A DNA stretch of 64,000 bases, from NCBI RefSeq assembly GCF_010015585.1, contig NW_022985072.1, forward strand, positions 186,001 through 250,000, given 5' to 3'. The notes beneath the pieces are model-generated. The model had not been told where the DNA came from. It worked only from the letters and a program-made list of their open reading frames with translations, and ran no database searches. The DNA is from Eremomyces bilateralis CBS 781.70. Lineage: Eukaryota; Ascomycota; Dothideomycetes; Eremomycetales; Eremomycetaceae. This document shows, in pieces, positions 1-61,537 of the stretch (the stretch's first letter is position 1; the number at the start of each line of letters is the position of its first letter). The position numbers were made by a program, and so were the translations under genes.

Positions 1-1413
1 TTCAGCTCGTGACGCGCCTGGCCAACAAATTTGACGAAGAGCTTGGCGAGGATCATTCCGGGGTGGCGTTGGTCGAACAACGCGTGGAAGAGATGCAGAG
101 GCAAGGACTCCTTCAACCACCCTTCGGTACTAGTTCCAAGAAAGCCAAAGCGGAGTCTGAGGACGAAGATGCGATGGAAGAGGGTGAAGAGGAGGAGGAG
201 GGTACATATGACGAGGATGTGGATGACGAGGATCTCCTTGCGAAAAAGAAGAAGCTCGATCTTACGGTCGAGTATCTGCGCCGGGTCTTCAACTTCTGCT
301 TCTTCTGCGTCTTCGAAAGCGACTCGGTCCATGAATTGATGAGGAAGTGTCCGGGTGGACATTTGCGTCGGCCGAGAGCGAGTCTTACCACGCCAGCCAA
401 GATCGCTGCCAAAGCGAGTGCTTCCGGCCAGCCATTCCCTTACAAAAAGCAGGATTTGTCTGGAGAGGGCGAAGGCGCGTTGTCGCCAGTTGAAGAGAAG
501 AAATTCCCCAAAGGAAATCCGAAGACCCAGCAGCAGCTTCAACGAGCGTTCAACTGGGTGAAGACCTACGAGGACAAGCTGTTCCAGATCTTGGACCCTG
601 CGAGTGTGGATATCAAGAAGCTGGGCGGGAAACCTTCCGAAGAGGGAATGGAAGAAGAACTTCACAAATTTGTGAAGCAGGAGGACGAAGCCAAGTTCCG
701 ATGCAAAGTGCCCGACTGCGCCAAGCTTTTCAAAGGCGAGAATTTCTGGCGGAAGCATGTTGAGAAGAGGCACGCCGAGTTCTTTGAGAAGATCAAATCC
801 GATGTAAGTGATCCATACGCGATTTACTTGGATCATAGACTAATGTCCGTAGGTCGAGCTTGTGAATGCATATGTCCTTGATCCAGCTCATATCGCACCA
901 TCTAGGACGGACGCCAACAGCAACGGCCACTTCCCCATGAGCAATCATGCTGTCACCGGAACCCCTCGTGGCTTCAACCTCTCCGCCATACCCTTCGCCT
1001 TCAACAACGCGATACCAGGCGGTGTCCCCAACCCCGCCGCCATCCAAGCCTACTTCGCCCAAAACAACATGGTCCCCCCACCCGGCTGGACGGCCGGCGG
1101 CGCCATGATGGGTGCGGAAGACGACCGTCGCCCCGGCGGCCCGATCCGACGCTTCAACAACCGCCCGAACAACCGCGCGGGCGGCCCTTACGATCGGCCC
1201 TCGAAGGACATGCGGAACGCGCGATGGGGCAGCGCGTCTGGGCGGTTGACGCCGCCTCGCGCCAACGGGGCGCGCATGCCGGTTGATCCGCGCTTTGCCG
1301 ATGCGGCGGCGGCGCTAGTGGGGCCGCGGGAGGCGGTGCAAGGGAGGACGTTGCGGAGCTATGAGGACCTCGATGCGGCGGGGGCGAATGGGAGTGCGGA
1401 GTTGAATTACTGA
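1..1413 (+). CDS. ARS2/SERRATE-like zinc-finger protein (5' end outside window)
   Basis: Two exons are seen, from the window edge to 803 and 853-1413; the GT-AG intron at 804-852 restores frame as KIKSD/VELVNAY. The protein belongs to the SERRATE/Ars2 family (S. pombe Pir2), nuclear factors that link the cap-binding complex to RNA processing and decay. Visible parts are a long acidic stretch (near 165-235), a conserved helical middle with LQRAFNWVKTYEDKL, then the family's C2H2 finger with cysteines in CKVPDC and histidines in HVEKRH (about 709-775). The tail is Arg/Gly/Pro-rich (RRFNNRPNNR and following) and ends ELNY. The N-terminal part lies outside the window, and the first bases (ttcag) could themselves be a splice acceptor. 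The tail switches from C-rich to G-rich codons near 1150-1190. Family assignment is firm from the finger and its flanks. Confidence 0.85.
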
Positions 1414-2474
1414 GTCGGCACGGGTTCCTTGCGACGTCGCGTGGATATGGGGAGAAATGCGCGGGATTCGTCACGCGGAATTAGAACATCACATGGTCTT
1501 ATCGATGGGGTTCGCACCACAAGAGTCCGTGTTCGTTAGGGTGACTTAACGGGTGCAAAATTGCGTTCATTATTGCTGGGGACGATCATTTAACATTCTC
1601 TACTCCGTCGAAGGGTGTCTGACTTCCGAGAGATGACGGACCCAGCCTTTATGTTTCACACTGTATGTTAGATTGACGGCTGGACTTCAGGGCCATCGAC
1701 GCGGAGATGGCACCGCGTCCTCCGGGTTTCGGATCAAAATTTTTATTTCTAGCTAGCCTGAGTAACAAATGGAAATTCGAAATCTGCACCATGATCCCGT
1801 CGTGTCTCTTGTGAGTAGTGACTTGTGAGGATGTCCGATGACGCCAATCCGAAGTTGCCGTTAGATTGGCGATGGTCGCTTACAAGGATGGATCAGATGG
1901 ACATTGGAGGAACGTTCAACAACGGGATCTTGCTCGACGGGCAGTTTAGTCCCCATTGGCTCCTTCAGCTCGCAACTAACCAATGCCCAGGAATTGGTGG
2001 GCTTAGCACTTAGCCAGCTTAGCTTGAAGAGGCATCGTCATCTATATTGGTTAGCACCATTACGCGGCGAGGAAGCGTGGATACGGAATGTATTGCTTCC
2101 CATCACTCACTCTTTGTCTCCATTACTTGATGCTTCTTGCTTCTTACTCTTCACCGATCTACTCCACCCTTTTTCGCGTCATTCTCCCCATGAAATTATA
2201 TCTCCGTCCATCCTTCCGCACCTTGTAAAAGCCTCCGTCCCGCTCTCTGCTTCCTGTTCCGCGCTGCCACACTCCACCTTTTCCCCCTCTGCTTGGCTCG
2301 TTCCTCCAGCCCTGACATCAATCTCTTCCACCATTCCTGAACATTGCTACCTCTCCCGTGCCAAAGCCCTTCCATACTCCCGTCTCCCGTGCTTGCGAAC
2401 ACAATCGTTTCCATCTCCAGCCATCCGGAAGCGCTCTCTCGTCCGCACGAACTTACAGCCCCAGTGACGTTGGA
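1414..2474. other. Intergenic: ARS2 3' region and LEC1 leader
   Basis: No gene is seen. The distal half (about 2100-2474) is strongly pyrimidine-rich, typical of a filamentous-fungal promoter and leader, and probably holds the LEC1 transcription start. An open frame at 1904-2467 on the + strand has low-complexity Ser/Pro/Leu content and looks like this CT-rich leader rather than a gene. Confidence 0.5.
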
Positions 2475-5400
2475 ATGGCAGCCGACACCACCGTCTCAGA
2501 CCCAGCAAACGCGACGAACTACCATCCCCCGAAGGCTGTGCCGCACCTAGGAGAGTCGCTCGATAGCACGGGCAATGGATCGCTATTAAAGCCCCGGGGA
2601 TCGAGCCCTTCAGATACCTCTGCCGTGTCTATACCTCCACCTGGCTCGATCCTGACCGGCAAGCAAGAGCATTGTAAGCAATCCCACTCGTGTAGAACCA
2701 GCGATACGGATATGATCGCTGACCCTCCCCAGACCTCAAACGACAACTGCTCTCCGAGCAAGTCGAGCATGAAATCCAAGAACTCTCGTCCAACACCGCC
2801 CTCCAGCGCTTCGGCGCCCCTTTCCGATCGGACGCCGGCGAGGTGCCGCCCAAGGACTCCGAACTACCGATACTAAGATACGTATTTGTCCACCATGTGC
2901 GGAATTTTCCGTTCCTCGACCAGGCACGAGAGAAGGAGTTTTGGCAGGACAAGCTTCAAGTGGTAAGGAACCTAACAGCGGGCTTCGGTGTGACATAGTG
3001 ACTGACGCGTGTCGTTCCAGTTCCTCGAATCGTTTGCGAACAAACATATTTCGTCTTCGGAGGATCGGCTCGAGGAGACGAAGCGGAAGAAATTGGCGGT
3101 GAAGGCGGAGAAGATCGTCGAGTTGATGATGGTGTCCGGGCTGCCGACCGCATCGGGGTATGAGGAGCGGATCCGGTTCGCGGAGATCGAGGTGGTGGAC
3201 CGGGGAGCGAATGAGCTCGGCCTCATGGCGAATGCGCCGCACGGGCATGCAATTCACGGTTGGGATGTCAATGTTGCTGGCGTACGAGTAACGTCGGTCA
3301 AGAGACATGTCAGATACCATCAGCATGCGGTATGAGGTCGGATCACTACAGGAGGGAAACCGGCTAATCCAGTATCTAGGAGTATATCCTCAGAGTCAAG
3401 CGAGAGGGAAAACCCGACATCTATGTTGGACGACGATACGACGAGTTCGTCCACCTCCACAAGCGGATCCGAATGGGACTGCCTGGGAAGGTATTAACCC
3501 CCCTCCCGCGCAAAAACAAGTCAAATGCCGTAGCTCCTGCATTGGGAGACGACTCGGAATCCATATCCTCTGTTTCCACGCAGTCCACGACACCTCCCAA
3601 CGATCCTCAGGAGGTGTCCAACTCATCATTCACGGGCCATCGATCTCTTCTACGTCCCGTGGATGGGTCAGGCCACAAGCGAGGCGCGTCCCTTTCGTCC
3701 CTCCGCAGCCGAAAATCTCCTCGTAGCTCGGGCGATTTTAGTCGCCCGGCGGTGCTCTACCGCGAGGAACAGCGCGTTTCCCTTCGCGCGTTTCTTCGCA
3801 CATTCCTGCAAAACGAACACATCGCCCGCAGCCCCGCGATGCAGGAGTTCCTAACGGGGAACGTCGTCCAACCCAACGAGGAAGAGTTGGAGGACATCGA
3901 GCGCCGGCAGGGACTCGACGAACGGCGCCTGGAAGAGCAGCAGAAGTTCTACGAGATTGCTAAGCAGCGCGCGGCGGACCTGGACAAGCACATGGAGAAG
4001 TTCCGGCGCGACGTCGTCGAGCGGAACGGGCTGTCGAAGCTGTTCCAGGAGATTCGGGAGAAAAGCACCATCGCGGAGCTCAAGCCGGAGTACCGCGTGT
4101 TTGCCGAGTGGCTGCGCATCGAGGTGGCCGCGACGATCTATCATCTCTTCCTCGCCGAGGACAATTCCCCCGAGCTGTTCGCCCAAGCGAAACGCATCCA
4201 CTCGCTCATCCCATATTCCCTGCTCAAAAACGTCATCCGGATCGCCAACCCGGCCGCGGTCATGGCGGGCGTGCTCGATCTCTTTCTCGCGCAGCCGTTC
4301 GGGACGCGCTCGCTGATGCAGCGGATTTTCGGTATGGCCATCCACGACGGGATCAGTAACATCCAGAAATCCGTCGACGTTGTGCGAGGAAAGGTTGACG
4401 ACGATGTCCTGTCAGACAAGATCAAAACGTTTGTGGAGGCTGATGAGGACGTCAAGGCTATCATACGGGAGGAAGCGGTCGACGACAACGTCGATCCTGT
4501 CGTTGCCGTGTTGCGCTCGGCGCTCATCGAGCCTCCACTCACGCCGGAGCAGATTGGGAAGGTTTTCAACGCCTATGTTGCTTGGACGAATGCTGTTGAT
4601 AATGTAAGTGTTTTGTCCCTAATACTCTTCCGTCAATTTCGTGGCTAGTACTAATCAATTCTATAGGTCGACGAGGAGATGAAGCAAGGGGCTGAATTGT
4701 TCGCGCATCTCAAACAGCTACTAAAGCTGAGTCTACGACAGCGGGACAAATCCATGATGCTGCAGATGATTGAAGAGGTGAGTTCCACGCAAGGCCACTA
4801 ACCTAGCGATCATGCTGACAACGCTTTACGAACAGCCTACCACCCTCCAACTCTTCAAGGATCTCTTCACCATCTTCTACGAACCCCTCGTCCGCGTCTA
4901 CAAGTCCGCAAACGTGTACAACAGCATCACCGACTTCGCCTCCTTCGTCGACGATACGATCAAGACCGTCGAAGCCGCCCAACGGCAAGATTTCTCCGCC
5001 GACCCCAACCAGACCGTGCAAGCCTTCATCGACCTGTGCGCGCGGCACGAAGACGACTTCTACAAGTTCGTGCACGAGGTACACACCCACGACGACGGGC
5101 TCTTCGACCGGCTGATGGGGTGGATCGAGGAGCTGCTGCATTTCCTGAAACAGGGACCGCGTGGGGGGGGGCGGTTGGACATGAACGCGCTGTATCAAGG
5201 GGCGGTAGACGCGAATGTCATCGACGGGGCGGCAGCGACGCGGGAGATCAACGCGCTGATCAAGTGGCAGATGGCGCGGAAGAAGTGGCATCAGGACAAG
5301 ACGCGGCAGAAGATGGCGACGGGGGATGGGTTGGATGAGACGCGGATGCCGGGGATGAACTCGTTCAAGAGCAGCGATTTCGGGCTGAATGAGGTATGTT

Positions 5401-5684
5401 GACTTTTCGTTTCCACGTGACCCCTTTCGCCTAGACCATCTCTAACCTTTCCGTAGGTCGATCTTGAAGACCTCGAGCTCGACGACCCCAGCGACAGCGA
5501 CGATGAGTCCGAGCTGGACGATGAAGACGTGGTCGATCCCATCGCGGCGGAGCGGAAGCGGCGGCAGCGGCGGTCGGAGACGTTAAGGCGGTCGGCCGGG
5601 GAGCCGAAGAAGCCGGAGGTGACGGAGTTGAAGAAGCTGACGGGGAGTTTCAATACCATGCTGCGGTCGGTTCTTGCGGAGTGA
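2475..5684 (+). CDS. LEC1: PX-domain lipid-binding protein, LEC1/YPR097W family
   Basis: Seven exons: 2475-2673, 2733-2962, 3021-3329, 3380-4603, 4667-4777, 4836-5393 and 5457-5684, giving about 952 residues; yeast YPR097W is of similar size. The N-terminal third carries a PX-associated (PXB) region (YVFVHHVRNFPFLDQAREKE). Then comes a PX domain (about 225-295: YILRVKREGKPDIYVGRRYDEF, then PLPRKNK) interrupted by a Ser-rich insert before its last helices (QRVSLRAFLRTFLQNEHIA). The rest is the DUF3818 helical region. The family binds phosphoinositides and is placed at ER contacts in yeast. The C-terminus is acidic then basic. An in-frame ATG at 2358 would add 39 residues, but I prefer 2475 because the upstream stretch is CT-rich leader. 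All junctions keep frame and restore conserved sequence. Confidence 0.88.
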
Positions 5685-6064: not shown

Positions 6065-6913
6065 TCAATGCTTCCCCTTCTTCTTCTTCTTCCCCCCTCC
6101 CTGCTGCGACGCCGTCGGTCCCCCCGCCTCCACCAACACCGTATCGTCATCGCTCCCCTTACTCCCCACTGCCGACACTGGCACCGCTGCCGTCGCTTTC
6201 TTCGCCCCCGATTCCTCGTCCAGCTCCTTCATGAAGTCCGACTGGATCCCCGCGAGCTTCTTTGCCCACCACTCTTTCTCCTTGGGCACCTGCGCCTGGA
6301 GCTCCTCGGTGCGCTTGCGGACGATGGCGTTGTTGGCCATCTCGTTGGCGCTTTGGAAGATGGATTGGCCCCAGTTGGGGGAGAAGGCGTTGGCCTCGTC
6401 ATTGTCAGTCGTTCGTCCGCCTCCGATCAAGCGAGTCAGAAATAAGAAGGGAGAACATACCTCATTCACCACATCCCTTATCTCCTCCTCCACCTCCTTC
6501 TCCGCCCGCTGAAACCGCTGCCATAGCTCGTCCCCGACGCTCCCGCGCTGCAGCAACGTCGTCAGCGCCTGCTTCGCGTTCCGCACGGCGACGATGCGGT
6601 GGATGTCCTCGGTGGCGCGGCGGAGCAGCGCAGCGCGCAGCACGCCATCGGGGACCTTGGGAGTGCCTTCGGGGGGGTCGAGGTGCAGGAGGGAGAGGTA
6701 GATGTTGCGCTGGAGGTGCGGGTCGAACCATGGGGCGAGAGAAGCAGCGTGAGCTGGGGTATGTTAGTATCGTGGGTGTGGTATATGGGTAGGAGGTGGT
6801 TGGAGGGACATACCGGCTTGCCGTTTGCGATAGAGGTAGGAGAAGGTGTAGAGGGAGCCCACGACCACGCCTAGGTAGGCGAAGGGGATCGCGAGGTTAA
6901 CCCAGTCCACCAT
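6065..6913 (-). CDS. SEC66: Sec66 (Sec71), ER post-translational translocon subunit
   Basis: Three exons on the minus strand: 6913-6814, 6753-6461 and 6394-6065, about 240 residues. It is the membrane-anchored partner of Sec72 in the Sec62/63 complex that moves finished proteins into the ER. The start MVDWVNLAIPFAYLGVVVG opens a single transmembrane segment (about residues 5-27). The conserved body follows: PWFDPHLQRNIYLSLLHLDP, LRAALLRRATEDIHRI and NAFSPNWGQSIFQSANEM. The tail is disordered and ends in a Lys stretch (GGGKKKKKGKH). The second intron (6460-6395, 66 nt) has no in-frame stop, so retention would insert 22 residues. It shares a 415-bp divergent promoter with NOP14. Confidence 0.92.
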
Positions 6914-7328: not shown

Positions 7329-9838
7329 ATGGCGCCCTCACAGTTGAAGCAACTGAAGTCTTCACTCCGCGACCATGGAATCTCTGGACCTTCCCAGTCG
7401 AAAAAGGCACGCAAATCCGATCAATCCCGTTCGAAGAAGGGCCATAAAGAAGCGGTCTTATCTACCTTACGAGAGTCTTTCAATCCATTCGAGCTCAAGT
7501 CCGCCGTGAGACCGCGCAAGTTCGATGTTACGTCCTCGAAGACCATCGGACAAAATGGCAAAGCTGTGGTGCTTGGGCGTCCGGGCGTCACGAAAAGCCG
7601 AGGAGAAGAGCTGGTATGTACAGCCTGAGAGTATAAAATTATTCAGATACTGACTCTATATAGCGGCGGAACACCCTTCTTCCGGACCTTCACCGCCGTG
7701 GCAAGGTTGGAGGGATCCAGGATCGTCGAATCGGAGAGATGGACCGCACGTTGACTCCTGAAGAGCGATTACAACAGCGTCTTGCCAAAGAAGCCACCCG
7801 CCGACGAGGGAAGACGATGTTTGACTTGGATGAAGACGAGGATACCATCGGACTGACCCATCTTGGGAAGGATCTGGATGACTTCGAGGAGGACATCAGC
7901 GATGCGTCGGAAGACGAAGCGCGTGGAGAAAACGATTATAGTGATGATGACCGGGAAGATGGCGCGTCCAGGAAAAGGCGATGGGAAGGGGACGGTGCCG
8001 CATCAGATGTCGAGGATGGAGCAGAACCGGAGAGGAAAAAGAGCAAGGCGGAAGTCATGAAGGAAGTCATTGCAAAATCTAAGTTCCACAAGTTCGAACG
8101 GCAGCAGGCGAAAGAAGAGGATCACGAAATCCGGGAGAAGTTGGACAAGGAGACGCAAGGGATTCTTGCATTACTCGGGAAGGGGAAGCCCGGTGCGCCG
8201 AAGGCCGGATTACCACCTGCTCCAGCCAACGGGATCTCCAAAGACGCCGGTGGAGAGACCGCCGCGGAGAAACGCAGGGATTACGATGAAGATCGTGGAA
8301 AACTCCTGTTCGACCAGCGCGCGAAGCCAACGGAGCGGACGAAGACGGTGGAAGAACTCGAGCAAGCACGAGTGGATCGTCTGAAAGCCATGGACGAAGA
8401 GCGAGCGCGTCGTATGAGAGGCGAGGCGGACGATTCGGCAGAGAAACTTAAATCTGACGAGGACGGCGACGCTGAGTTCTTCGGGTTCCAGTCGTCGAAA
8501 ATACCGGAAGAAGACAGAATGCCTGGAGAAGAGCAAACCGACGAGCTCGGGTTTGAGGACGAAGACGACTTCCTGATTGAGGATGACCTCGTGGCGTCCG
8601 ACATGGAGGGGAGCGTCGCTGAGTATTCTAGCGACGAAGAGTCGGAGGACGAGTCTACCACGTTTGCGGGGGACGATATCGTGAATCCCAACCGGACGGC
8701 CCTTGGCTCTGGCCGAAAAGCCGAGCAGCACATAGACTTCGGCCCTGAGCATGCGGGCAGTTACCCCTGTCCGCAAAGTCACGAGGAGTTCTTGACGATA
8801 TTGGAGCCTACCACGATGGACGAGTTGCCGTCGGTCATTCAAAAGATTCGCGCGGCTTACGGGGCGCAGCTACGACCCGAGAATGTTGAGAAGTTGTCGG
8901 CCTTTTCCACCGTCTTGGTCGACCATATCGCGTACCTAGGGACTCTCCAGCCGCCCGCTCCGTTGCCGGTAGTGGAGACGGTAATCCGCCACATCCACTC
9001 CCTCGCGCGCTCCTCCCCCCTCGCGGTCTCCAAAACCTTCCGCACGCACCTCCGCCGCATCCAAACTACCTCTGACCTCGCCCCCGGCGACCTCTTCCTC
9101 CTCACCGCCATCAGCACCATCTATCCGACATCCGACCACTTCCACCAGGTCGCCACCCCCGCCATCTCCCTCATCGGCCGCTGGCTCGGTCTCCACACCG
9201 CCAAAACCCCCTCCGAATCCCTTACCGGGGCCTACCTTGTCGCCCTCGCCCTCCGCTACCTCCGCCTCTCCGCTCGCTACATGCCCGAGCTTCTCCGCTT
9301 CTCCACTTCTGCCCTCCGCCACCGTCCTGCTCCCACCCTCGCCGCCGCGCACGTCGCCAACCTCCTCACCATGGCCGAACTATGGTCGGGGACTCCCGGC
9401 GCCTTCCCCGCCATGTTCCCCTCCTCCATCCTCCCCCTCCTCGACCCCACCTCCGCTCACCGCCTGCGCGTCCTCCTCGCGAACGCGCGCCGCGGCCGCC
9501 GCCCCCTCGAACTGCACCACCACCGCCCGCTCGCGATCCGCAGCGTGCAACCCAAGTTCGAGGAGAACTACAACCCGGACAAGCACTACGATCCGGACGC
9601 GGGGCGGACGGAGTCGAAGAAGCTAGCAAAGGAGTACAAGAGGGAGCGGAAGGGGGCGATGAGGGAACTGCGGAAGGACGCGAACTTCGTGGCGCGGGAG
9701 CAGTTGAAGGAGAAGAAGGCGAAGGATGCGGCGTATGAGGTAAAGTATCGGAAGTTGGTGGCGGAGATTAATGAGGAGGGGGGAAGGGGGCGGAATGAGT
9801 ATGATCGGGAGAGGAGGAAGGCAGGGAGAGGGAGGTAG
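7329..9838 (+). CDS. NOP14: Nop14, 40S ribosome biogenesis / U3 snoRNP factor
   Basis: Exons 7329-7613 and 7664-9838 give about 819 residues, normal for the family. Nop14 is a nucleolar component of the small-subunit processome needed for 18S rRNA maturation and 40S assembly. Family landmarks are the N-terminal ESFNPFELK and DVTSSKTIG segments, the junction GEEL/RRNTLLPDLHRRGKVGGI, GEMDRTLTPEERLQQRL, long acidic runs in the middle (residues about 140-330), the helical Nop14 body, and a lysine/arginine-rich C-terminus (KEYKRERKGAMRELRKDANF). I chose the ATG at 7329 (MAPSQLKQLK), as in relatives; an in-frame ATG at 7320 would add three residues. Codons are C-ending over about 8990-9480 and then turn G-rich to the stop. 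Confidence 0.93.
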
Positions 9839-12800
9839 ATGGGGAGGTAGTTATTGTTTGTAGGGAAGATGGGATGAGATATGTTTACAATGGATGGACA
9901 TTCTGTGCTTCCTACGATTTCGTGATCGACATTGCATACTTCGACGACACACTCTTGCAGTCCCGCTCATACCAAGTTCCATCCCACCACCCAACTTTCC
10001 CGACGTCGTACAAGGCTGCGGTACGTACCCCGGCATGGCTGCCTCCTCCTCCACCTCACAAAAATCCCCCCTATCCACTCCCATCCCTCCCACCTCCTCG
10101 CTCCAGCCCGCCGCCCCATCCTAGTCGCATCCCACCTCACCTTCCATCGCCCAACCAACGTCCGACCTACATCTCCCACTCCACACGCATACTCGTTGCC
10201 AAGGCAACGAGGTAGGACGGTTGGGTGGTTGGGCGGTTGGATGCACAGTGCGTGGGGCAGGCATGATACGACAGATGCAGGAGGTCGGAAGGAGGGAGTA
10301 CAGGGTGGGGTTTGTCACCGGTAAGCTAGGACTTGGGGGGAGGTGAGGGAGTCGTGAGGACTGAGGAGAGAGGAGAGAAGAGGCGTGGATGGGATGGGAT
10401 GGATGGAGTGGGAAAGAGAACAGGATAGTCGGTGTGTGTCTATGATACATTTCCCTGACTCAGACTGAGCGGAGGGGAATGGACAGGTACGCATCAACGT
10501 ACCTCCCTACCTCTCATCCTCCCGTCTCCCCCTCCACCCTCCACAGCCCCTATCTTCGATCATCTCCCTCAACTCATCACACAAGCTCCCTCCCAACTCC
10601 CAACTCCCAACGGTCTAGACCCCCACCGCCCGCGCCAATCCTGCTAGCATCCGATTCAGTGCTGCGGTTCGGTGGTACGAGGGGTGGTCGCAGTGGTAAT
10701 GGGACACGTGCCGCCCGGGCGCTTGGCGAGGATGGGTTAGTTCATTGTTGGAGGAAGTGAAGAGATTTTCCCCACTGCGGGAGATTGTAGATATCTGGGA
10801 TGAAGGACCATCGGAAGTGGTTGGGTTGGTGGGTTGGGCGGTTACCTTCGGAATGGGAGTGCGGTTGGGCCGCTTGGGTGGGCACGGAGACTACCGACTA
10901 CAGGAATACACGCAGCAACTCCGTTGTTGGGAGAGGGTCAACAGCTGGGGAAGTGGGGATATAGACTGGTAAGTGGTGTGGATGTCGCCTTGGCCCTGAA
11001 TGGAGGGTCTCCCATCCTTCGGTATGCTACCTACCCGTTTTCGACCCATGGCTGGGAAGAGCAGGTAGAGGGTATTCCGTATGCTACTCGATCATAGGGA
11101 TATGCGGTTCACGGGCATGGGGTGTAGTGATCGGGGGTGGGGAGCGACCGCCTGGGGAAAGCCTGGGATGGCGGGGCGAAAGGAAACGTGAGAACTGAGA
11201 AGGTGACATATCGCGTTGTATGTGTTTCTGCGATGGTGTTGGGAGGCGTTCATGGCTTCCTGTAGAATTGCCCTCGTGTGACGACACAAGCTGAGAGGAC
11301 CATGGTCGGTCGGATTACGTACAGGGCGGCCGATTGGGATTCGGTAATCTCGATCAACCCAATGATCAGGCTTTTGGAATCGATCAACTATCAAACCCCT
11401 TTTGGAGGGCGACATCGTGCCCGCCGTCTGGACTCTGCACTCGGGAATCACTACCGATTGCCGTCGACATTCGATAATACCGCATGTGGAGACAGATGTG
11501 AGACGGGGAACTCCATAAGGCTGAAAAAGGATATGACGCGCTGAAAGCCTGAAATGAACCGATCGACTTCCGGTTTCCACATCGGAATTCGCCATGACCG
11601 TGGCGTTCACGATTCCAAAAAAGGTCCAACAAAGCAAAGGGAACGGCAACGGATCATCCAATGGAACGGAGGGACGTGCGGTCGATAGCTGGACGGCAAC
11701 CAAACTCAAAGTCAGAAGTCACAGCGAATGTGTTGAAGAGACCGTGGCTGTCCAATTATGTATCCGTTACAGTAGGTAGCGAAGTGGTGCACGTATCCGA
11801 ACTCATGGACTTAGAAAATATCGAAAAGGAGTCTTCTCGTCGCGCATGTGCTGAGAAGATCCTGAAGGCGTGTCCCTCGATCCACGGGACGCGGCATGCT
11901 TGGCGAGGTTGGATGGAATCATGCAACCAAGGATGCCCGAGAGAGGACAAATAAGACAATGGACGGATACAGATTACAGACGTACAGTGTCCCTACATTG
12001 CTGCCAATAAGTGACTTCGAAACAAGTGCAACGACCCTCGGTCTGCGGAGTCCTCCATGCAGCCGGCCAGGTACATCACATTCCCTCCGTCGTAGGTTGG
12101 TCGCACAGCGCTCCACCGGAAGCGGGCAAACGTCCTAAGTGTCGCCAAAACATCTGGGCGACGGCGCTCCCTGTCGTTCTGACGTCCGAGAAGCGTTCTG
12201 GGTCTGAAACCGGAGGACGATGGGATTGCTTTTTTTCCTCGCGGTCGGGACGCGGATTCGTGCCTAGCCATATAAAAAGCATTGTCGGCGCACGCGGTCA
12301 AGGGAATGGGGACGGGGGTTGAAGGCGCCGTGGTTGGGTTCCCTGTGGTTTTGTGGGGAGGCACGGGGAGGTGGTTAAGCGATCAATATGGGCGAGAGAA
12401 AACCATCTCGAGTTCTTGACGTAATTAAGGGACGATCGGTGCGGAACGTAGATGGGGAAGTGGTTGAGGGCGAACGGTGCGCGATGAGAACCCGGGTGGT
12501 GAACCGTGGACGACAGACCTTGAGGGACCAGGGAAGGTATGTATCATCAAGGTTCATTGGAAGGGACTTAAATTGAATTTGGGAGGTGTTGTGGAACGGA
12601 AGGGAAACAGTCCGGGGTCGAACTGGAGATACAGTTCCGAATGCATCGAGATTGGGAGAAATGCGATCATGAAATAGGTAATTACCGTGGCTCGGAATGT
12701 AATAACTAGTCATAGTGACAGATTTGAGTTTCGAGGAGAGGCGAGAGCATCCATCATATCATCGGCCAATCAATGGCGAAGTACCAGTGTCCAGTACATA

Positions 12801-15800: not shown

Positions 15801-15903
15801 GATCTCTCCGGGTGCGGACGTCTACTCTCTCGAGAACTCAAGTCTAACTTGTTCTCCTCCTTCACCATCCGTACCTCGCAGACGTAGCACTGCAATCAAA
15901 GCT
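9839..15903. other. 6-kb gene-poor tract upstream of the bHLH gene
   Basis: No gene could be supported. Open frames here (the largest is 11092-11709, minus) lack recognisable domains, coding texture and plausible splice partners. Visible features are CT-rich blocks (about 10020-10135 and 10490-10600), a perfect CACGTG E-box at 10705-10710, and a moderately AT-rich stretch (about 12700-13200). From about 14820 to 15890 the DNA is pyrimidine-rich and is probably the long promoter and leader of the bHLH gene. That leader would contain several short upstream ORFs, the last at 15602-15847. Confidence 0.5.
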
Positions 15904-17936: not shown

Positions 17937-18136
17937 CGGGGTTCTTTTTCTCGTGGCGTTTTCGGAGGCGAGAGGACGATGGGATCTCGCGTGTCTGTTA
18001 TGCTCGGCTTTTCTGTTCGGGGTTGGATTTCCGCCTTTTTTCCTCCCATCGTGCATCCGTCCCCTCCGTTGAATGTTCCAGGACTTTCTATTCCGATGCT
18101 CAAGACGTCGGGACGGGGATTGAGAAGATAATTGGC

Positions 18137-18162
18137 CGACGCTCGACGCTCGACGCTCGACG
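18137..18162. repeat. Short 7-bp tandem repeat (CGACGCT)
   Basis: CGACGCT is repeated about 3.7 times, about 200 bp past the stop of the bHLH gene and probably within its 3' untranslated region. No function is evident. Confidence 0.8.
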
Positions 18163-20895: not shown

Positions 20896-20975
20896 AGTCC
20901 AGTCCAGTCCAGTCCAGTCCAGTCCAGTCCAGTCCAGTCCAGTCCAGTTCAGTTTAGTTCAGTCTAGTCCAGTAT
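20896..20975. repeat. AGTCC pentamer microsatellite with degenerate 3' end
   Basis: Ten perfect AGTCC units (20896-20945) are followed by six more units in the same 5-bp register: AGTTC, AGTTT, AGTTC, AGTCT, AGTCC and AGTAT. All but one of the altered positions are C-to-T. It lies in non-coding DNA. Confidence 0.95.
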
Positions 20976-25921: not shown

Positions 25922-25933
25922 CCCCCATCGAAC

Positions 25934-50481: not shown

Positions 50482-53400
50482 TCACTCGGAAATATCACCA
50501 TCCTTCGGCTCATCGAGCTCAATCCACTTAGTGCGACACTTCACCGCAGCGGCTCGCACCGCCCGCCTACTATCATCCAGCGGCCTAGTCAGCTCTTTAA
50601 TCACCGACTTCCGGAACGGAATGACCGCATCGACCGAGAACGCAGCCGCGATGTTCGCAAGGCATCGCAGTGATGTCTCCCGCACGGCGCCGGAGTTCGA
50701 CTTGGACGACGCGGCCTTGAGGAGCCGCGGGATCAGACTGCTCAGATAGCTCGCCATCGCCGCGGAGTTCTCGGTTAAGATCAACCCCAGCGTCTCGACT
50801 GCGGCGACTTTGGTGGCTTCTTCGTCCGCGAGGTCGAGCATCTGGAGGATGAGCGGGAGGAGAGAGGGGAGGTCGGATTCGATCACGGAGTAGGGAAGGG
50901 ACTTGACAATGCTCATGATCGCGACAAGGTAGTTCCGCTTGATAGCGTCGGACTCTTCTTTGAAGGACGTCGTCAGTGGAGGGACAATGAGGGAGAAGGC
51001 TTTCTGGCGGTAGAGCGGGGAGATTTTGCAATGGTTCTCTTTGGTTAGGAAATCGTCGGATTGGAGAATCGTGGCAAAGCCTCGTGCTACCGGGCGACCG
51101 TACTCTGGATCCAACAACAGCTTGCGCAGCTCAGGTAGGATGGGGATAAGCTTCCGTTCGTTCCGGAGGAGAAGAGCCTTGACAGACGCCAGGATGAGTC
51201 GCGCGGAGTCCTTTTTATGCGCGCAGGCAGCGAAGTCGCCGATCGGTTTACTGCACAAGAGGTCCACCGCAAATTCCGCATTATCAGGCGACAGGAATTT
51301 GTTTAGGATTAGAGAGACCTGTCGCAGACTTGCTCGACGTACTTCGACACTGGTAGAGTCAGCTGTGGCGATGTCGGAAAGGGTCGAAAGATGCTTTCTC
51401 AGATCTTGGATTGGTACGACGTCTCGCTGAAGGGCAGCGACAATATACGAGGATGCGAGGAGCTTGAGGGGATTTAGCAGGGTGCCACTGGCATCGACAT
51501 TCTCTGATGACTCTCCAAAGGCATCCACAGGGTTGTAGATTTCGATGAGGTGTTTCTTCTGGAAAGCCGACGTTTGTCGGCGCAGCACAACGTTGCAGAG
51601 CTGGCCGACCAACTCGTAAACTCTGTTGTTGGCGAAGTTGCTCTGGTTGCTACCGTCGCCTACCCGTTGCAGTAACGGGAAAATCAGTTGCCCATAGAGA
51701 GGACAGTCCTCATCAGTACCGTCAAGAGAAGCGGATGTGTGGGTGAGCGCATATAACAGCGCTGACAACAACGCACAGAGGAAGGTCGAAGAAGATTGCT
51801 CTCTGATGGCGGCGTCTAATTTGTTCCGGAGCCGTAAGATGACAAGATCGAAGACTTTGGCTTCTTGAGCCAAGTTCGAGAACGCGTCCAACACAGGAAC
51901 GTATCCAAGGTCGCCGGCCGTATCATTGTCGGGTATAAGGGAAAGGAAACGAGGGAAGGCGTGGTCTATGATGAGGTGAGGTTTCTGATGAGCAATGTCG
52001 ACTAACGCTTGGATCGCGGGCCCACGAAGCTCGACTTTGCCTTCGTAATCATCAAGGATGAGGTCTAAACACTGTCGGATGAGGGTGGAAATCTCTTGGT
52101 CCTGGAGGAGATTTCGACACATGCAAAGCTGTACTAATCCCTCCAGGCAAATCTTCTTAAATGCCACTTCATTCGCAGGGACGCTCAATTGTCCACCCAC
52201 AAGCAATGTGACAAGAATGTCTTTGTGCTCGGAAAAGGCGTTGTACGTATCCTCTTGCGTGTCTGCCACGCCCCTTCCGGCGATGGTTACCCAATCACCA
52301 AACACTTTGACGGATGCCTTCAGCAGTTGCACCAGGACTTCCAGCAGACTTCGGCGCTTTGCGAGCGAATCGGCGCCTTCGAAAAGCGCAACGAGATGCG
52401 GAACGACGTGGGCCACCAGTAAATTTGCGCATTCTCGCGTTCTTGAGGCGACGGCCTCCAGGATCTGTCCGGCTGCTTTCGATTGCTTCGTCGGCGCGTC
52501 CTCGAGGTGCTCGGAGCATTCTTTCGATATTGGCCGGAGATATGCAACGAGTTGCGGACGTCCGACGGATAACTGTGCTCCGATCTCGGATATGACATCC
52601 AGAGCCTTATCTGCCAGGTCTTCTTCCTGGACGCTAAGAATCTCGAATTTGAGGGCATCCCAGAGCGTGACGGCATAGAGGGACACGGTCCTGGTTCCGT
52701 AGTTGGAGATGCAGCTATGGAGCGCTGCAAGAGTGTCTCGCTTAGTATTCAGCGATGACGAATCCAACTTATCGAGCAGCGCTGGGAAGGAATAGGGCGC
52801 AAAGCTCCCGCATGCGGCTATGCAGTCGCGAAGTCTGTCTTTCAGATCTTGCGCGGTTATGCCGTAAGGATCATCTGGAGGGGGACGGAAGGTAATGGGG
52901 AAGTAGTTGAATACCGCTTCGAACCCGTCCTGTGCATAAGCTCCCAGCTCCCATTCACTGAAGGGCACATTGAGGATCGAAAACACGATCATAAGGTTCC
53001 TAGGATCCTTTTCTCCCTCGAACAGCGAGATGAACGTTGGCATGAAGTCCGAGGACGCTTGATGGAGGCCGTGAATCGCTTCCCGGTACTCTGCTATTAG
53101 TAGGTTTATCAATTTCAGAACCGCGTATCGCTCTGACTGCTGTCTGATCTGCCGTAACGGATGAAGGGATTGGATGATGGTCTGCATGCACTCCGCAGCT
53201 CTTTCCGCGTCCCATTTCCCAAACTCTTCTATCTTCATGAGCGCATTCGCGCAGGCGGCAGCGCCGAGCCCTTCAGCATCACCGTTAATCCGAGTCGTGA
53301 GAAAATGTACGAGCAGTTCTCCTGATAAAGCAAAAGGTCAGTATTCGTTCCTCTTTCCGTGACTTCCGCCAACGCGATAAGACCGGGGAAAGCGACGGTC

Positions 53401-54383: not shown

Positions 54384-55451
54384 ATGGAACCTAAGCCGGA
54401 GCCAAAATCCCAATGCAAGGTCCTCTTGGCCAACACGATGTCGAAGAAGCTCCAGGAGGAGGTAATCCAGAGTCTTCAAGCCCTCAACCCGCCGCAACCC
54501 CCGAAGTTAGTGGGATTCCTTAGCAGCGAGGACCCGGCCGCGCGCGTGTACGCCGAGTGGACGGGCCGCAACTGCCGCGAGCTGGGCTTCGAGTTCGAGC
54601 TGCGCGAAGTCGACCGCGAGGACCTCGAGGAAAGCCTCATCGCGGCGAACGCCGACGCGGGAGTCCACGGGATCATTGTTTACTATCCGATCTATGGCAG
54701 CCAGCACGATCGGTACCTGCAGCAGATCGTGGGGCTGAACAAGGACGTGGAGGGGCTGAGCCACACGTATATCTTCAACATGTATCAGAACATTCGGTTC
54801 CTGGACGAGGAGCGGAAGGTGAAGAGCATCCTGCCGTGCACGCCGTTGGCCGTCATTAAGGTGCTGGAGTATCTGCAGATTTACAATACGATCTTGCCGT
54901 ATGGGAATCGGCTGCATGGGCGCACGATTACGGTCATCAACCGGTCCGAAGTGGTCGGACGACCGCTGGCGGCGCTGCTGGCGAACGACGGAGCGTATGT
55001 GTACTCGGTCGATGTGAACGATGTGCTGGGGTTTCATCGTGGGCAAGGGTTGAAGAAGAAACGGCACGAGGTCACGGAGAAACCGGGATGGACGATGAAG
55101 GACTGCATTCCACTGAGTGATGTGGTCATTAGCGGTGTACCTGGCGACAAGTTCAAGGTGCCGTTGGAGCTGATCAAAGACGGCGCGGTCTGCATCAACT
55201 TCTCCAGCGAAAAGGTTAGGTGCTCTCCCTGTCATCCTTCGCTTGACACTAACGCCTCGTAGAACTTCGCGCCCGGCGTCAAAGATCGCGCCTCGATATA
55301 TATCCCCGCGATTGGCAAGATGACCATTGTCGTCCTGCTGCGAAACTTGTTGGTATGTTTTCCTAATCCTCCTCGCCGATAACCCTATCGCTGATTTTCC
55401 CGCTCCTAGCGCCTCTACCAAAACACCCTGGCACAACAAAACAGCTCATGA
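54384..55451 (+). CDS. MTD1: NAD-dependent methylenetetrahydrofolate dehydrogenase
   Basis: Three exons: 54384-55214, 55263-55352 and 55410-55451, 320 residues, the same as yeast Mtd1. It oxidises 5,10-methylene-THF to methenyl-THF with NAD in the cytosol, feeding one-carbon units to purine synthesis. It has the tetrahydrofolate dehydrogenase/cyclohydrolase fold: KLVGFLSSEDPAARVYAEWT, GIIVYYPIYG, KSILPCTPLAVIKVLEYLQI, then the nucleotide-binding segment GRTITVINRSEVVGRPLAAL and SDVVISGVPGD. The last exons give NFAPGVKDRASIYIPAIGKM and RLYQNTLAQQNSS. The first intron has a less usual donor (GTTAGG). The gene converges on RPF2 with only 138 bp between stops. Confidence 0.94.
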
Positions 55452-55589
55452 CAGTGACGACGAAACGGGGGGATTGGCCCCCTCTTTCCACCATAACTTG
55501 TCGAGACCTGCAACACGACTCCTTGGTGAATTTAGTATCGACAACCCATGTGGATGGATATGCTTGCATCGTGAGAGTCGCGGAACATC

Positions 55590-56679
55590 TCAAGTCTCGG
55601 CACGAGATTTCTTTGGCGGCGGGCTTGCAGAGCGTTCTTTGAGGTCGGTCGCGTCCACAGTTGACTCCCCCCGATCGCGTTTCAGACCCTTCATCTTTCG
55701 GGTCTGCAGATGGGTGAGGTCTTGCTTGCCGACATGGATCCGGCCGACCTTGTCTCCCACGATATCTGTTTCGATGTTCTTCTTCGTCCTGGCCTGTACA
55801 GATAGACTTGTCAGATATGCTTTCAATAGAAAAGGAAGAGAGATACGCACCTCGAGCGCCCTCGGCCTCTTCAACGCCTCCTTCATGATTGATTCGTCCG
55901 CTTGCTTATGCCTCCCAACATGGAAGTCGATCCGTGGCCCCATCTCCTCCAGCTCGACCAGCGGCGTCTTCTCCCCACTCCGCTTCGTGACGAGCTTGTA
56001 GACCCGCATCCGGATCTTCGGCGCCGGCTGGCCCTCCACCTCTTCTTCCGCGCTGATATGGATCATGTACTGCAACCCCTCGATATCGATGCTGGGGGCG
56101 TCATGGCCGCGGAATAAATCCACGAACAGACTCTTGGCGACGCTGTATGCATTGGTGGTCGGACTCTCAAACGGCGTCCCCGAGAAGGACAGCAGCGGTT
56201 TCGCGCCCACGGCGCACTTCTCGTTCTTGAACTGGTTCAGCGTGCGGAACGACTCCGGATCGATGTACAGCTCCAGCATATCCAGCACCTTGTGGCTGAA
56301 ACAGCGGATGAATGTCAAGCAATGCGGGCGCTTCTTGCTATGGTAGCCGAAGACGAGGAGCGCGGCATCGTTCTTCTCAGAGAAGAACTCGAGCGACGAC
56401 GGGTCCTCGAACGGATGGATGCCATCGTTCTTCTTGGTGAATCGGATGGACAACGGTCGTTTGAGGGCGTTTAGGTCGGCGAGGGCGAGCTGGACGACCT
56501 GGCTTGCATTCTGGCCGCGGAGGAAGAGGGTTGTCTTCGGGTTCTCGACTAATTGCGGTTGTTTCTTCTCCAGGATCCTCTTGGACCGAGCGGTCTTGGG
56601 TTTTCTGGATGGCAGATAACATATCAGCTTGGGATTCTCATTTGAATCGTTCGTTTGGACCTTACACTGTTTTTAACAT
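55590..56679 (-). CDS. RPF2: Rpf2, Brix-domain 60S ribosome assembly factor
   Basis: Three exons: 56679-56666, 56604-55851 and 55793-55590, about 323 residues. With Rrs1 it brings 5S rRNA and its ribosomal proteins into the early 60S particle in the nucleolus. The first exon is only 14 nt; joined to the second it reads MLKTVKPKTARSKRILEKKQ, the expected Rpf2 start. The Brix domain follows (TLFLRGQNASQVVQLALADL, PLSIRFTKKNDGIHPFED, HKVLDMLELY, GLQYMIHISAE). A Lys/Arg-rich tail ends PPPKKSRAET. The second intron (55850-55794, 57 nt) has no stop, so retention would add 19 residues. It is divergent from GRX4 and convergent with MTD1. Confidence 0.93.
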
Positions 56680-57097: not shown

Positions 57098-58055
57098 ATG
57101 GCAGAAGTGCGTACATATCCATCCTGTGTAGACGTTAAGATGGAAAACTAACCGTCGCATGACCCCAGCCCACAAAAGTCACCGAGATCACCTCCGAACT
57201 CGGGTTCCAAACCTTCGCCAACACCGTCCCGGCCACCGCCCTCCTCGTCGTCTACTTCCACGCACCATGGGCCGCGCCCTGCAAACAGATGGCCACCGTC
57301 CTGGACACCCTCGCCAGCACCTATCCCGCACAGAGCCCGCCCGCCATCAGCTTCGTCTCGATCAACGCGGAAGAGGTGCCCGAGGTCTCCGAGCAGTTCG
57401 ACGTGACGGCAGTGCCGTTCATCGTGCTGCTGAGAGGCGGCGCACGGCTCGAGACGATATCCGGCAGCGACGCGGCTAAGGTGCGGGCAGCGGTCGAGCG
57501 GCATGCGGCGCCGGGTGGCGCACCGGGTGGCCAACGACTGCCACCGGCGCAGCAGGTGGTGAAGAAGGCAGAGGACACGACATTGGGAGATGTGGGAAGC
57601 ACGACGAACGGAGCACTAGGAGCCAGAGGAAACGAGACAGCACCGATAGATAGTACTGGTGAGCAAGACAAGGAGGCACTATTTGCACGGCTCAAGGATC
57701 TGGTGAAGGCGGCGCCGGTGATGCTGTTCATGAAAGGGACGCCCAGCGCTCCACAGTGCGGGTTCAGCAGACAGACGGTGGCGCTACTGAGGCAGAAAAA
57801 CGTGCGATATGGGTTCTTCAATATTTTGGCCGACGACGACGTCAGACAGGGGCTCAAGGAGTACGCGGACTGGCCGACTTTCCCTCAATTGTGGGTTGAT
57901 GGGGAGCTGGTGGGTGGATTGGACATCGTAAGTACCACCCGAGAAGAATTCCATCGGCTGTGGGAAACTAATGATTTTTGAAGGTTCGAGAGGAATTCGA
58001 GAATAACGACGAGTTCCTGACGGAGTATTCCACAGGGGCAACGGCAGCAGCATAG
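57098..58055 (+). CDS. GRX4: Monothiol glutaredoxin Grx3/4 (thioredoxin-glutaredoxin fusion)
   Basis: Three exons: 57098-57106, 57169-57927 and 57984-58055, about 279 residues. Cytosolic Grx3/4 proteins carry a glutathione-ligated 2Fe-2S cluster and act in iron trafficking and iron sensing. The N-terminal thioredoxin-like domain (about 4-115) has the single-Cys motif WAAPCKQM (Cys41) and the cis-proline segment VTAVPFIV. A disordered linker follows. The C-terminal glutaredoxin domain has KGTPSAPQCGFSRQTV with the CGFS active site at 200-203, then DWPTFPQLWVDGELVGGLDI. The first exon is 9 nt and encodes only MAE. The last exon gives REEFENNDEFLTEY. MMS19, another iron-sulfur factor, lies 3.3 kb away. 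Confidence 0.93.
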
Positions 58056-60055: not shown

Positions 60056-61537
60056 ATGAAACTCACCTCCTCCATTTTGGTTACCGGCTTGGCTGCTGTG
60101 GCTGCGGCTAAACCACTTCTCCATCCTCATGTCTCCAACTCGCTCTCTTCTCGACAAGTTGCTCGATCAACTGAAGAATCCCATCAAACTGGTGGAGAAG
60201 AATTCGTCATCATCCTCGACAACGACCAGCCCACCCCGCCGGTGATCCACGATGTTCTTGCACGGTTGGCATTGACTTCGGATCATAACGATGTCAAATA
60301 CGTGTTCAACAATACGGCCTTCCGGGGGTTCGTGGCGAATATGGAAGATCACTGCCTGGACGCGCTTCTGAATATGACCGACGTATCCATTGTCGAGAAG
60401 GCCATGTCCGTCTCAACCTTTGCCACGCAACGAGGTGGCGCACCATGGGGACTGGAACGCATCTCCAGTGCGGACACGGTGACCGGGAACCCCACCGGTC
60501 TCGATTTCACGTATTCGTTTGACAACACTGAGCTCGGAGCTGGCGTCGACATCTACGTCATCGACACTGGCGTCTACACCGATCACATCGCTTTCGGGGG
60601 TCGAGCACGCTCCGGCTTCTCATTCGAGAACGATACATCTGACGGCGATGGCCACGGCACCCACGTTGCGGGCACTGCCGCAGGAAATGTGCTGGGTGTT
60701 GCATCTGGCGCCAACATTTGGGCCGTTAAGGTGCTTGGGGCTGATGGATCCGGATCTACCTCCGATACGCTCAAGGGCATGGATTGGGTGATTCAGAATC
60801 ACAACAAACGCAAGGAGGAGGAAGGCTTTGTCGGTAGCATCATGAGCATGTCTTGGGGTCTTGCCCGACGTAAGTATCAGTAAATTCCTGGAGCGAACGA
60901 CATGAACTCACCATTTCCAGACAACGACGGTATCGACCGCGCCATCCGCTCCGCCAGCGAAATTGGCATCCACATGGCCGTTGCCGCCGGCAACGAAGCC
61001 GGCAACTCCTGCACCGCATCCCCCGGATCCTCTGGCGGTTCCCAAGGCCCCGCCATCGTCGTCGGCAGCATCGACATTACCAACACGATCTCCAAGTTCT
61101 CCAACACCGGCGCCTGCAACGACATTTACGCCCCCGGCGAAGACATCGTCTCCTCGTGGATCGGCCAGAACAACTACGTCAACTCCCTCGACGGCACCAG
61201 CATGGCCTGCCCCCACGTCACCGGCCTGATGGCCTATCTGATGGACGCCAAGCCCGAGCTGCGCACCGACCCCCTCGCCATGAAGGAGTACCTGAAGCAG
61301 ACCTCGCTGAGGGACGTCGTCCAGGGCACCGCGCTCGACGGCGACGACAAGCTGCTCGCGAACAACGGCGTCACCGCCCAGGCGAAGCGCGACGTGCCGT
61401 CGAACGTGCAGCTCGTCAAGAAGCGATCGGTGGAGGATACGGTGGTGAGCCAGGTGGAGTCGAAGACGGAGCTTGAAGGACGCGCGGGGACGATCACGCT
61501 TGAGTTGGCGCAGTCTAACAAGAGGTTGCGGCTGTGA
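60056..61537 (+). CDS. Subtilisin-like serine protease (S8, proteinase K type)
   Basis: Exons 60056-60869 and 60921-61537 give about 476 residues. Signal peptide at about residues 1-18 (ILVTGLAAVAAA). An inhibitor I9-type propeptide follows (EEFVIILDNDQPTPPVIHDV to SVEKAMSVS-like end near 120). The catalytic domain starts around APWGLERIS. The triad is complete: Asp170 (YVIDTGVY), His200 (DGDGHGTHVAGT) and Ser365 (LDGTSMACPHVTG), with oxyanion Asn296 (AAGNEAGNS). The C-terminal extension past about 425 is charged, with dibasic KR sites (AKRDVP, KKRSVED), and may be trimmed. It is secreted or vacuolar; the sequence does not decide between an extracellular alkaline protease and a Prb1-like vacuolar enzyme. 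Codons go from C-ending to G-ending near 61270. Confidence 0.92.

Follow-up and report, generated by a model that had tools for sequence, protein, structure and literature searches.

Coding sequence changes from C-rich to G-rich along most genes of a 64-kb stretch of Eremomyces bilateralis CBS 781.70 DNA (contig NW_022985072.1, positions 186,001 to 250,000; hereafter the window, numbered from its first letter). Does this change belong to the 3' ends of genes, or to something else? An earlier note on the sequence had described, in genes of either strand, a block of C-ending, pyrimidine-rich codons giving way fairly abruptly to G-ending, purine-rich codons that run to the stop, and had proposed R-loop-linked termination, antisense transcription from the 3' end or transcription-coupled mutation bias as possible causes. 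Here we show that GC skew in the window (negative towards C, positive towards G) is directed towards C where GC content rises and towards G where it falls; that is, it tracks the negative of the local GC gradient and not gene position, and the unit of the pattern is not the gene. All results concern this one 64-kb window and the 18 genes that we modelled in it, and several of the statistics were picked after earlier results were known.

The switch from C to G at synonymous sites

The C blocks listed by the earlier note hold in all 11 plus-strand genes concerned, with third-position frequencies of 0.66-0.87 for C (C3) and 0.02-0.15 for G (G3). The listed G blocks hold in 10 of the 11 (G3 0.47-0.74, above C3), the exception being REG1, with C3 at 0.48 and G3 at 0.38. 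We compared C3 and G3 with synonymous shuffles that exchanged third bases, gene by gene, between codons of one fourfold family. The local C-to-G switch was significant (p<0.05) in 16 of the 18 genes, SEC9 (p=0.10) and MMS19 (p=0.054) falling short; the REG1 model was partial and the MTD1 model provisional in this test. The reverse, G-to-C switch reached p<0.05 in 6 of the 18. Because 16 genes beat a shuffle that preserves the amino acids, amino-acid content alone does not explain the switch.

The original description of where the switch lies stands in part. Thirteen of the 18 genes finish in the G state of the third-position hidden Markov model (HMM) described below and so run to the stop as claimed, but the remaining ones do not: SEC9, U2AF65 and MTD1 finish in the C state, and RPF2 and GRX4 in the balanced state. 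RAX2 flips to C at its last intron and then has a short G end. Similarly, a position near the gene 3' end is correct for the strongest switch in each of the six longest genes, at 0.79-0.94 of their length, but not for that of seven others, which comes earlier (U2AF65 0.19, GRX4 0.24, LanC 0.28, RPF2 0.30, OGG1 0.33, MTD1 0.36, SEC9 0.45), and 14 of the 27 HMM switches lie in the 3' half of their gene. The claim of a strand-oriented pattern with a mirror image on the minus strand carries no strand information, since an arrangement with C on the left and G on the right is its own reverse complement and therefore looks the same on both strands by construction.

At the gene ends, skew is negative over the first 60 codons in 13 of the 18 genes and positive over the last 60 codons in 13 of the 18. 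Pooled skew is -0.22 over the 300 nt upstream (17 genes) and +0.12 over the 200 nt downstream of the stop (18 genes).

Skew follows the local GC gradient

Plus-strand GC skew is negatively correlated with the local GC gradient under all five settings used (r -0.42 to -0.56; standard deviation (sd) of the null 0.04-0.07), both in coding-only sequence (-0.34 to -0.56) and in non-coding sequence (-0.35 to -0.46). The same relation is seen in two long stretches without gene models, 9839-16598 and 17937-25933 (about 7 and 8 kb), where r is about -0.46 to -0.48 and 0 of 217-274 circular shifts gave a value as low. The non-coding status of both stretches is defined by the gene finder and by a Pfam-negative scan of ten open frames: open frames there reach 226 codons, and none of the ten longer ones scanned has a Pfam match. 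The corresponding correlations in control DNA are +0.047 for Escherichia coli K-12 (50 kb) and -0.039 for phage lambda, with a null sd of 0.053.

To separate the gradient from gene position, we used a regression over 657 overlapping 30-codon segments with the gradient measured outside each segment. The GC gradient accounts for 32.5% of the variance of fourfold skew, the fraction along the gene for 1.7% and the fraction along the exon for 5.8%; in the joint regression the gradient alone keeps an interval clear of zero, while that of gene fraction includes zero. AT skew hardly participates (correlation with the GC gradient 0.05-0.13). Fourfold GC is 0.85 within 300 nt of a switch and 0.69 beyond 600 nt, a difference of 0.153 against a null of 0.030 (sd 0.013). 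Over the whole window, C-before-G pairs exceed G-before-C pairs out to the 600-800 nt bin; in E. coli and lambda DNA no value exceeds 0.002 beyond 15 nt.

Skew is reset at introns

At exon junctions the skew falls back towards C. Of 31 junctions, 25 could be tested, having 6 or more fourfold C/G sites in the 120 nt to either side: from upstream to downstream the skew drops at 20 of these, with a mean change of -0.47, as compared with +0.06 (sd 0.11) at random positions of the same genes, and 0 of 2000 simulations gave a mean as low. Among junctions in the 3' halves of genes, where 150-nt segments were used, it drops at 11 of the 12 testable. C blocks tend to start at junctions (6 of 19 starts within 30 nt, 1.4 expected, p=0.0016), whereas C-to-G switches do not lie there (0 of 24 within 30 nt, 1.7 expected; both for genes with introns). 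Within exons the skew rises again, from the first to the last third in 27 of the 35 exons of at least 200 nt.

The causes proposed earlier fare unequally in the light of these results. They uphold a strand-asymmetric process whose target is the nucleotide and not the codon: synonymous sites and codon positions 1 and 2 all shift, 3' flanks are G-biased on average and the switch is present in stretches without gene models. They do not support a cause tied to the gene 3' end, to termination or to the gene's own transcription, given the 1.7% share of gene position, the occurrence of more than one cycle in 6 of the 18 genes and the resetting at introns. R-loop-linked termination in particular would tie the G block to the gene end; about half of the switches (14 of 27) are in the 3' half and G-to-C resets occur at internal introns, yet 13 of the 18 genes do finish in the G state.

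The skew is organised in discrete blocks

When constant, gradient and step models of skew along each gene were compared by the Bayesian information criterion, the summed values were 11833 for a constant, 11372 for a gradient, 11086 for one step and 10696 for two steps. Two steps were best for 13 genes, one step for 4 (MMS19 barely) and a gradient for 1 (SEC9). On held-out sites the flip is about 120-180 nt wide, localisation error included.

A three-state HMM of third positions, with one balanced and two skewed states, gave 15 balanced-to-C, 27 C-to-G, 8 G-to-balanced and 6 G-to-C transitions when transitions were learned, and 0 of the other two kinds. A strict balanced-C-G order was nevertheless rejected, since the zeros came partly from the learned transitions: when transitions were fixed and symmetric and the sites limited to fourfold ones, the counts became 12, 19, 8 and 4, together with 5 balanced-to-G and 5 C-to-balanced. 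The C-to-G direction is thus robust and the zero counts are not. Under the symmetric model C-to-G outnumbers G-to-C by 12 to 3 in plus-strand genes and by 7 to 1 in minus-strand genes. An HMM run on the DNA of the whole window gave 43 balanced-to-C, 32 C-to-G, 39 G-to-balanced and 12 G-to-C transitions, and the balanced-C-G order fits better than its reverse, by 87 log units in the window as a whole and by 8 and 11 log units in the two long stretches without gene models.

We refer to each discrete GC-rich unit, made up of a C block followed by a G block around a common centre, as an island. Island arms have a median of about 260-290 nt on each side, 25 of the 32 centres decoded at the DNA level fall in coding sequence, and 6 of the 18 genes contain two to four C-to-G cycles. 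The features are listed below, as decoded by the third-position HMM unless stated otherwise, with blocks given in the sense direction of the gene.

910-1410, plus strand: ARS2-like gene; C 910-1191, G 1192-1410; shuffle p=0.0135, scanned exon without Pfam match.
2750-5681, plus strand: PX/DUF3818 gene (LEC1; Pfam PX, DUF3818); three C/G cycles, 2750-2863/2864-3248, 3809-3922/3923-4144 and 4839-5108/5109-5681.
6068-6913, minus strand: Sec66 gene (Pfam Sec66); two cycles, C 6913-6587/G 6586-6461 and C 6400-6299/G 6298-6068.
8987-9835, plus strand: NOP14 (Pfam Nop14); C 8987-9574, G 9575-9835, preceded by balanced sequence at 7329-8986; also by shuffle and step model.
9942-10487, no strand: island without gene model; C 9942-10200, G 10201-10487; DNA-level HMM.
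16599-17933, plus strand: bHLH gene (Pfam HLH); two cycles, 16599-16926/16927-17306 and 17307-17678/17679-17933.
19396-19994, no strand: island without gene model; C 19396-19712, G 19713-19994; DNA-level HMM.
27079-27654, plus strand: REG1-like gene; C 27079-27597, G end short and weak; no Pfam match.
29158-30528, minus strand: SEC9-like gene; C 30528-29842, G 29841-29158; shuffle p=0.10, gradient model preferred, no Pfam match.
32191-33102, minus strand: U2AF65-like gene (Pfam RRM_1); C 33102-32743, G 32742-32191, in the gene's 5' half; also by shuffle.
33646-34931, plus strand: OGG1 (Pfam OGG_N, HhH-GPD); C 33646-34142, G 34143-34931; also by shuffle and step model.
35558-36715, plus strand: LanC-like gene (Pfam LANC_like); C 35558-35902, G 35903-35995, C 35996-36112, G 36113-36715.
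38180-41894, plus strand: RAX2 (Pfam Rax2 domains); four C/G cycles, 38180-38620/38621-38908, 39686-40249/40250-40363, 40637-41389/41390-41599 and 41600-41837/41838-41894.
43048-44040, minus strand: open reading frame (ORF) of 824 amino acids (aa); C 44040-43405, G 43404-43048; no Pfam match.
48456-49912, plus strand: fungal transcription factor gene (Pfam Fungal_trans); C 48456-49136/G 49137-49457 and C 49458-49792/G 49793-49912, the change to C falling at intron 49464-49651.
50485-51030, minus strand: MMS19 (Pfam MMS19_N, MMS19_C); weak C 51030-50797, G 50796-50485; shuffle p=0.054.
54537-55448, plus strand: MTD1-like gene (Pfam THF_DHG_CYH); C 54537-54638, G 54639-55175, C 55176-55448.
55779-56679, minus strand: RPF2 (Brix) gene (Pfam Brix); C 56679-56436, G 56435-55779.
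57098-57513, plus strand: GRX4 (Pfam thioredoxin, glutaredoxin); C 57098-57390, G 57391-57513, balanced up to the stop.
60869-61534, plus strand: subtilisin-like protease gene (Pfam Peptidase_S8); C from the exon junction at 60869, G 61379-61534.

Genes were modelled with a Markov gene finder trained on the window itself, and the models were then fixed by hand. Short GT-AG introns, Rax2 and a fungal transcription factor domain make the window look like filamentous ascomycete nuclear DNA. A Pfam match was obtained for 14 of the 18 modelled genes, while ARS2, REG1, SEC9 and the 824-aa ORF have none in the parts scanned. ARS2, truncated by the window edge, bears the name presumed in the earlier note; SEC9 is likewise a presumed name. 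The 824-aa ORF starts with GTG, the use of which is uncertain. The first intron of MTD1 (55158-55262) was altered between the shuffle test and the third-position HMM; no ordinary donor in frame preserves the expected protein, and we take a GTTAGG donor at 55215 to be the best fit, on presumed homology. A search with bacterial settings found no tRNA genes in the window, and no Rfam family reached its gathering score there; no relatives of RPF2 were found in the viral or genome contigs searched, and none of RAX2 in the genome contigs searched.

No local C-to-G switch in the window is stronger than that at 19710 (0.683), in the island 19396-19994, the C arm of which is overlapped by a 225-codon open frame (19100-19774) that was not called by the gene finder and is without a Pfam match. 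In the island 9942-10487, open frames reach 136 codons and the one scanned has no Pfam match. Shortly before this island, the 58 nt after the NOP14 stop (9840-9897) contain 23 G and 1 C and then turn sharply to C; the change at 9897, of 0.70, is the largest from G to C in the window. The two long stretches without gene models precede the bHLH and REG1-like genes, and both genes are preceded by C-rich stretches. The LanC-like gene adjoins OGG1. At 188 nt, intron 49464-49651, between the two cycles of the transcription factor gene, is the longest modelled; 133 of its 160 core bases are pyrimidines.

Nearly mirror-image C and G blocks, each with a gain in a single base

The fourfold composition of the C state (A/C/G/T 0.056/0.742/0.131/0.071) is close to that of the reverse-complemented G state (0.047/0.724/0.144/0.084), with a residual difference at p=0.049; the balanced state compared with its own mirror gives p=0.12. 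At twofold sites, which were not used in decoding, C/(C+T) and G/(G+A) are 0.611 and 0.593 in balanced sequence, 0.862 and 0.489 in C blocks, and 0.517 and 0.873 in G blocks. Each block therefore gains in one base alone, and the other member of the C/G pair does not rise. This argues against translational selection, under which C- and G-ending twofold codons would rise together, and against ordinary GC-biased conversion.

Fourfold T drops to 0.04-0.05 in G blocks, from 0.17-0.18, which argues against C-to-T deamination, while twofold T/(C+T) goes from 0.389 to 0.483. An equal gain from all three other bases proved inexact, T being depleted beyond A and C in G blocks (p=0.0007). Codon positions 1 and 2 and the amino acids also shift: relative to C blocks, G blocks have more V, E, G, K and R and fewer S, H and P. 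The observed/expected ratio of CpG in modelled coding sequence is 1.12 in balanced sequence, 1.19 in C blocks and 1.26 in G blocks; being above 1 in all states, it gives no sign of CpG decay.

What could produce the islands

Our preference, held tentatively and as a possibility rather than an expectation, is that the islands are the footprint of recurrent outward synthesis from fixed centres, most likely DNA synthesis in recombination or break repair. On each strand G is in excess 3' of a GC-rich centre, at which nucleic-acid synthesis would recurrently begin and from which it would run outward on both strands, in its likeliest form as extension of a displacement loop (D-loop) during recombination or break repair. 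Polymerisation outward from a centre has this geometry whether the product is DNA, as in D-loop or break-induced synthesis and in replication, or RNA, as in divergent transcription. The strand that is exposed or newly made would be shifted towards G, for instance through translesion synthesis; Rev1 places C opposite damaged bases, so that a lost base would become G on the damaged strand. Since the gain is limited to one base per arm, GC would rise without a separate GC bias, and since introns and gene ends are GC troughs, the published gene-level trend discussed below would be the average of islands.

Synthesis of the recombination type, at long-lived sites, is preferred because gene position hardly matters, because the effect is present in stretches without gene models, and because the change would match in kind the asymmetry of human meiotic breaks, where strand-asymmetric C>G and A>G mutations are described, with translesion synthesis as the proposed source (Hinch et al. 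2023, PMC7615360). As in a break-repair footprint, strand asymmetry in the islands flips at the centre; the correspondence in C>G and A>G is one of composition only (purine twofold sites of G blocks are 0.873 G, and fourfold C and A are depleted). In the fungus Zymoseptoria tritici, 1435 of 2578 hotspots are located in exons (PMC5844332).

Several observations weigh against this explanation or against the rule on which it builds. The gradient rule is weaker inside long exons (negative in 10 of 12, pooled r -0.33, p=0.0175; REG1 at +0.48 and LanC at +0.01 are the exceptions). The C-before-G pair excess stems from coding DNA: it is absent or of opposite sign beyond 3 nt in masked non-coding DNA, and the two stretches that lack gene models show it weakly (z 1.6-1.7 at distances of 60-240 nt). 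All six introns on the G side are C-rich (79 C and 34 G summed; one has a provisional border, and that of RAX2 sits at a G-to-C border), and introns overall have more C than G in 23 of 31 and fewer in 6 of 31. At the DNA level there are also 18 balanced-to-G and 23 C-to-balanced transitions, so that the order of states is a tendency and no rule. The passage from balanced to C sequence is step-like and complete within 45-90 nt at held-out sites, which is awkward since variable repair tracts should decay smoothly. In Z. tritici, GC-biased conversion is very weak or absent (PMC5844332). Finally, loss of C from 3' overhangs, which on the forward strand lie to the left of the break, would give the opposite arrangement around a GC-peak centre, with G on the left and C on the right; C lost from the overhang strands on both sides of the centre fits only with breaks at GC troughs, and the predominance of balanced-C-G over C-balanced-G speaks against these. 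Resected breaks at G-to-C junctions, which we favoured first, were marked down for the same reason. Outward DNA synthesis would therefore require the displaced or newly made strand to be the one affected, or else breaks at GC troughs.

Divergent non-coding transcription, antisense and sense, from intragenic promoters, with the displaced non-template strand gaining G, perhaps in R-loops, is nearly as good an account as recombination-type synthesis, and we regard it as a lesser but real possibility. It has the same outward geometry and predicts C on the left and G on the right, the sign also found at R-loop-forming CpG-island promoters. Step-like outer edges suit transcripts with fixed ends, and G bias carries on into the first 200 nt past the stop. 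However, balanced stretches are transcribed by their own genes without G excess (C 0.321, G 0.296), and transcription as such is therefore not the source of skew; moreover, ordinary gene starts are C-rich on the coding strand, as the upstream 300 nt show. Among the 24 of 32 DNA-level centres with arms of at least 100 nt, the 6-mer CCGCCC occurs in 8 (1.95 expected) and CGCGAA in 8 (1.20 expected); with expectations uncorrected for local GC and for the number of 6-mers, these counts neither establish a promoter motif at the centres nor speak against one.

It is doubtful that the mutation pressure proposed by McLean and Tirosh (2011), in which initiation leaves C and termination leaves G on the coding strand, is the source. 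Their trend is published for most fungi examined (PMC3315797), and the window agrees with it in that 13 of the 18 genes begin C-biased and 13 end G-biased, in the average C bias of promoters and G bias of 3' flanks, and in that AT skew is hardly coupled. Against it, gene position accounts for 1.7% of fourfold skew, with no clear contribution once the GC gradient is included, 27 switches are spread across 18 genes, the skew resets at introns, and the gradient rule is also valid in stretches without gene models.

Selection on the transcript, through elongation rate limited by cytidine triphosphate (CTP), RNA structure, splicing or codon choice for translation, is unlikely. A link to splicing would suit both the intron reset and the C-block starts near junctions, and the sharp outer edges would also be in keeping with selection. 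However, a translational preference for C- and G-ending codons should lift both twofold classes and only one rises per block; pairing between C and G blocks, assessed at the 18 of 27 switches that are flanked by 40 codons both upstream and downstream, is no better than in within-block codon shuffles (mean z +0.51); and neither the mirror composition nor islands without gene models would be expected. Ordinary GC-biased gene conversion, C-to-T deamination or replication origins are very improbable sources: fourfold GC does peak at the switch, but conversion should raise C- and G-ending twofold codons alike, deamination should raise T in G blocks, where fourfold T falls although twofold T/(C+T) rises, and 32 DNA-level centres in 64 kb are far denser than known origins, the spacing of which is far wider.

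Going beyond outward synthesis as such, one may speculate, with considerable doubt, that GC skew in this genome obeys a strand-symmetric rule, by which local GC peaks, coding or not, have C ahead and G behind on either strand, and that the islands are fossil marks of fixed intragenic points at which divergent DNA synthesis initiates, the published skew of genes being a by-product. If true, one genome sequence would suffice to map where recombination initiates.

Relation to known systems

The window is an instance of the trend reported by McLean and Tirosh in 2011, who describe an average coding-strand skew towards C at the 5' and towards G at the 3' side of genes in most fungi examined, their species list including filamentous ascomycetes (PMC3315797). 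They find this skew at fourfold sites, in amino acids, in promoters and in 3' untranslated regions (UTRs), with AT skew uncoupled, and they note that GC skew correlates negatively with GC content. The same 5' C/3' G bias is present here, it extends into promoters and 3' UTRs (judged on flanks of fixed length), and AT skew does not follow the change in GC skew. The gradual change set by gene position is not found: steps beat a gradient in all genes save SEC9, and gene position has an R2 of 0.017. Their results are averages with a gradual slope along the gene, whereas ours are blocks, repeated inside some genes, with in addition the reset at introns, the near mirror symmetry, the tracking of the GC gradient and the presence in stretches without gene models.

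Block structure, twofold mirror symmetry, intron reset and dependence on the along-gene GC gradient are not reported in the available text of McLean and Tirosh (PMC3315797), and none of blocks, mirror symmetry, intron reset or gradient rule is reported among the open-access matches listed or in the opening lines of their abstracts. On the basis of one 64-kb window without relatives, these four features appear to be new. Two gerbil papers were set aside, since 'GC skew' means GC richness there and not strand skew. A study of mismatch repair during single-strand annealing was also left aside; it describes repair with a strand bias, but mismatch type had little influence. As to cause, McLean and Tirosh leave the choice open between two proposals, transcription phase and CTP-saving elongation (PMC3315797), and no later answer is among the matches listed in the open-access literature. 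If skew tracks the GC gradient and resets at introns, both proposals target the wrong variable, and the thing to seek is a DNA process that starts at fixed points within exons. The pattern is also relevant for studies of codon usage and protein evolution, because amino-acid choice shifts with the blocks.

The R-loop-forming CpG-island promoters of vertebrates resemble the islands in having a GC-rich peak with a flip from C on the left to G on the right. They differ in that the flip there marks gene starts, whereas here most centres (25 of 32) are in coding sequence and the coding strand at gene starts is rich in C. The mutations described by Hinch et al. (2023, PMC7615360) lie around PRDM9 hotspots, and the sign expected of resected overhangs is opposite to that at the GC-peak centres found here; the likeness is an asymmetry that flips at a centre and reaches from hundreds of bp to 2 kb, and the composition of the islands is compatible with the C>G and A>G changes found among the types there.

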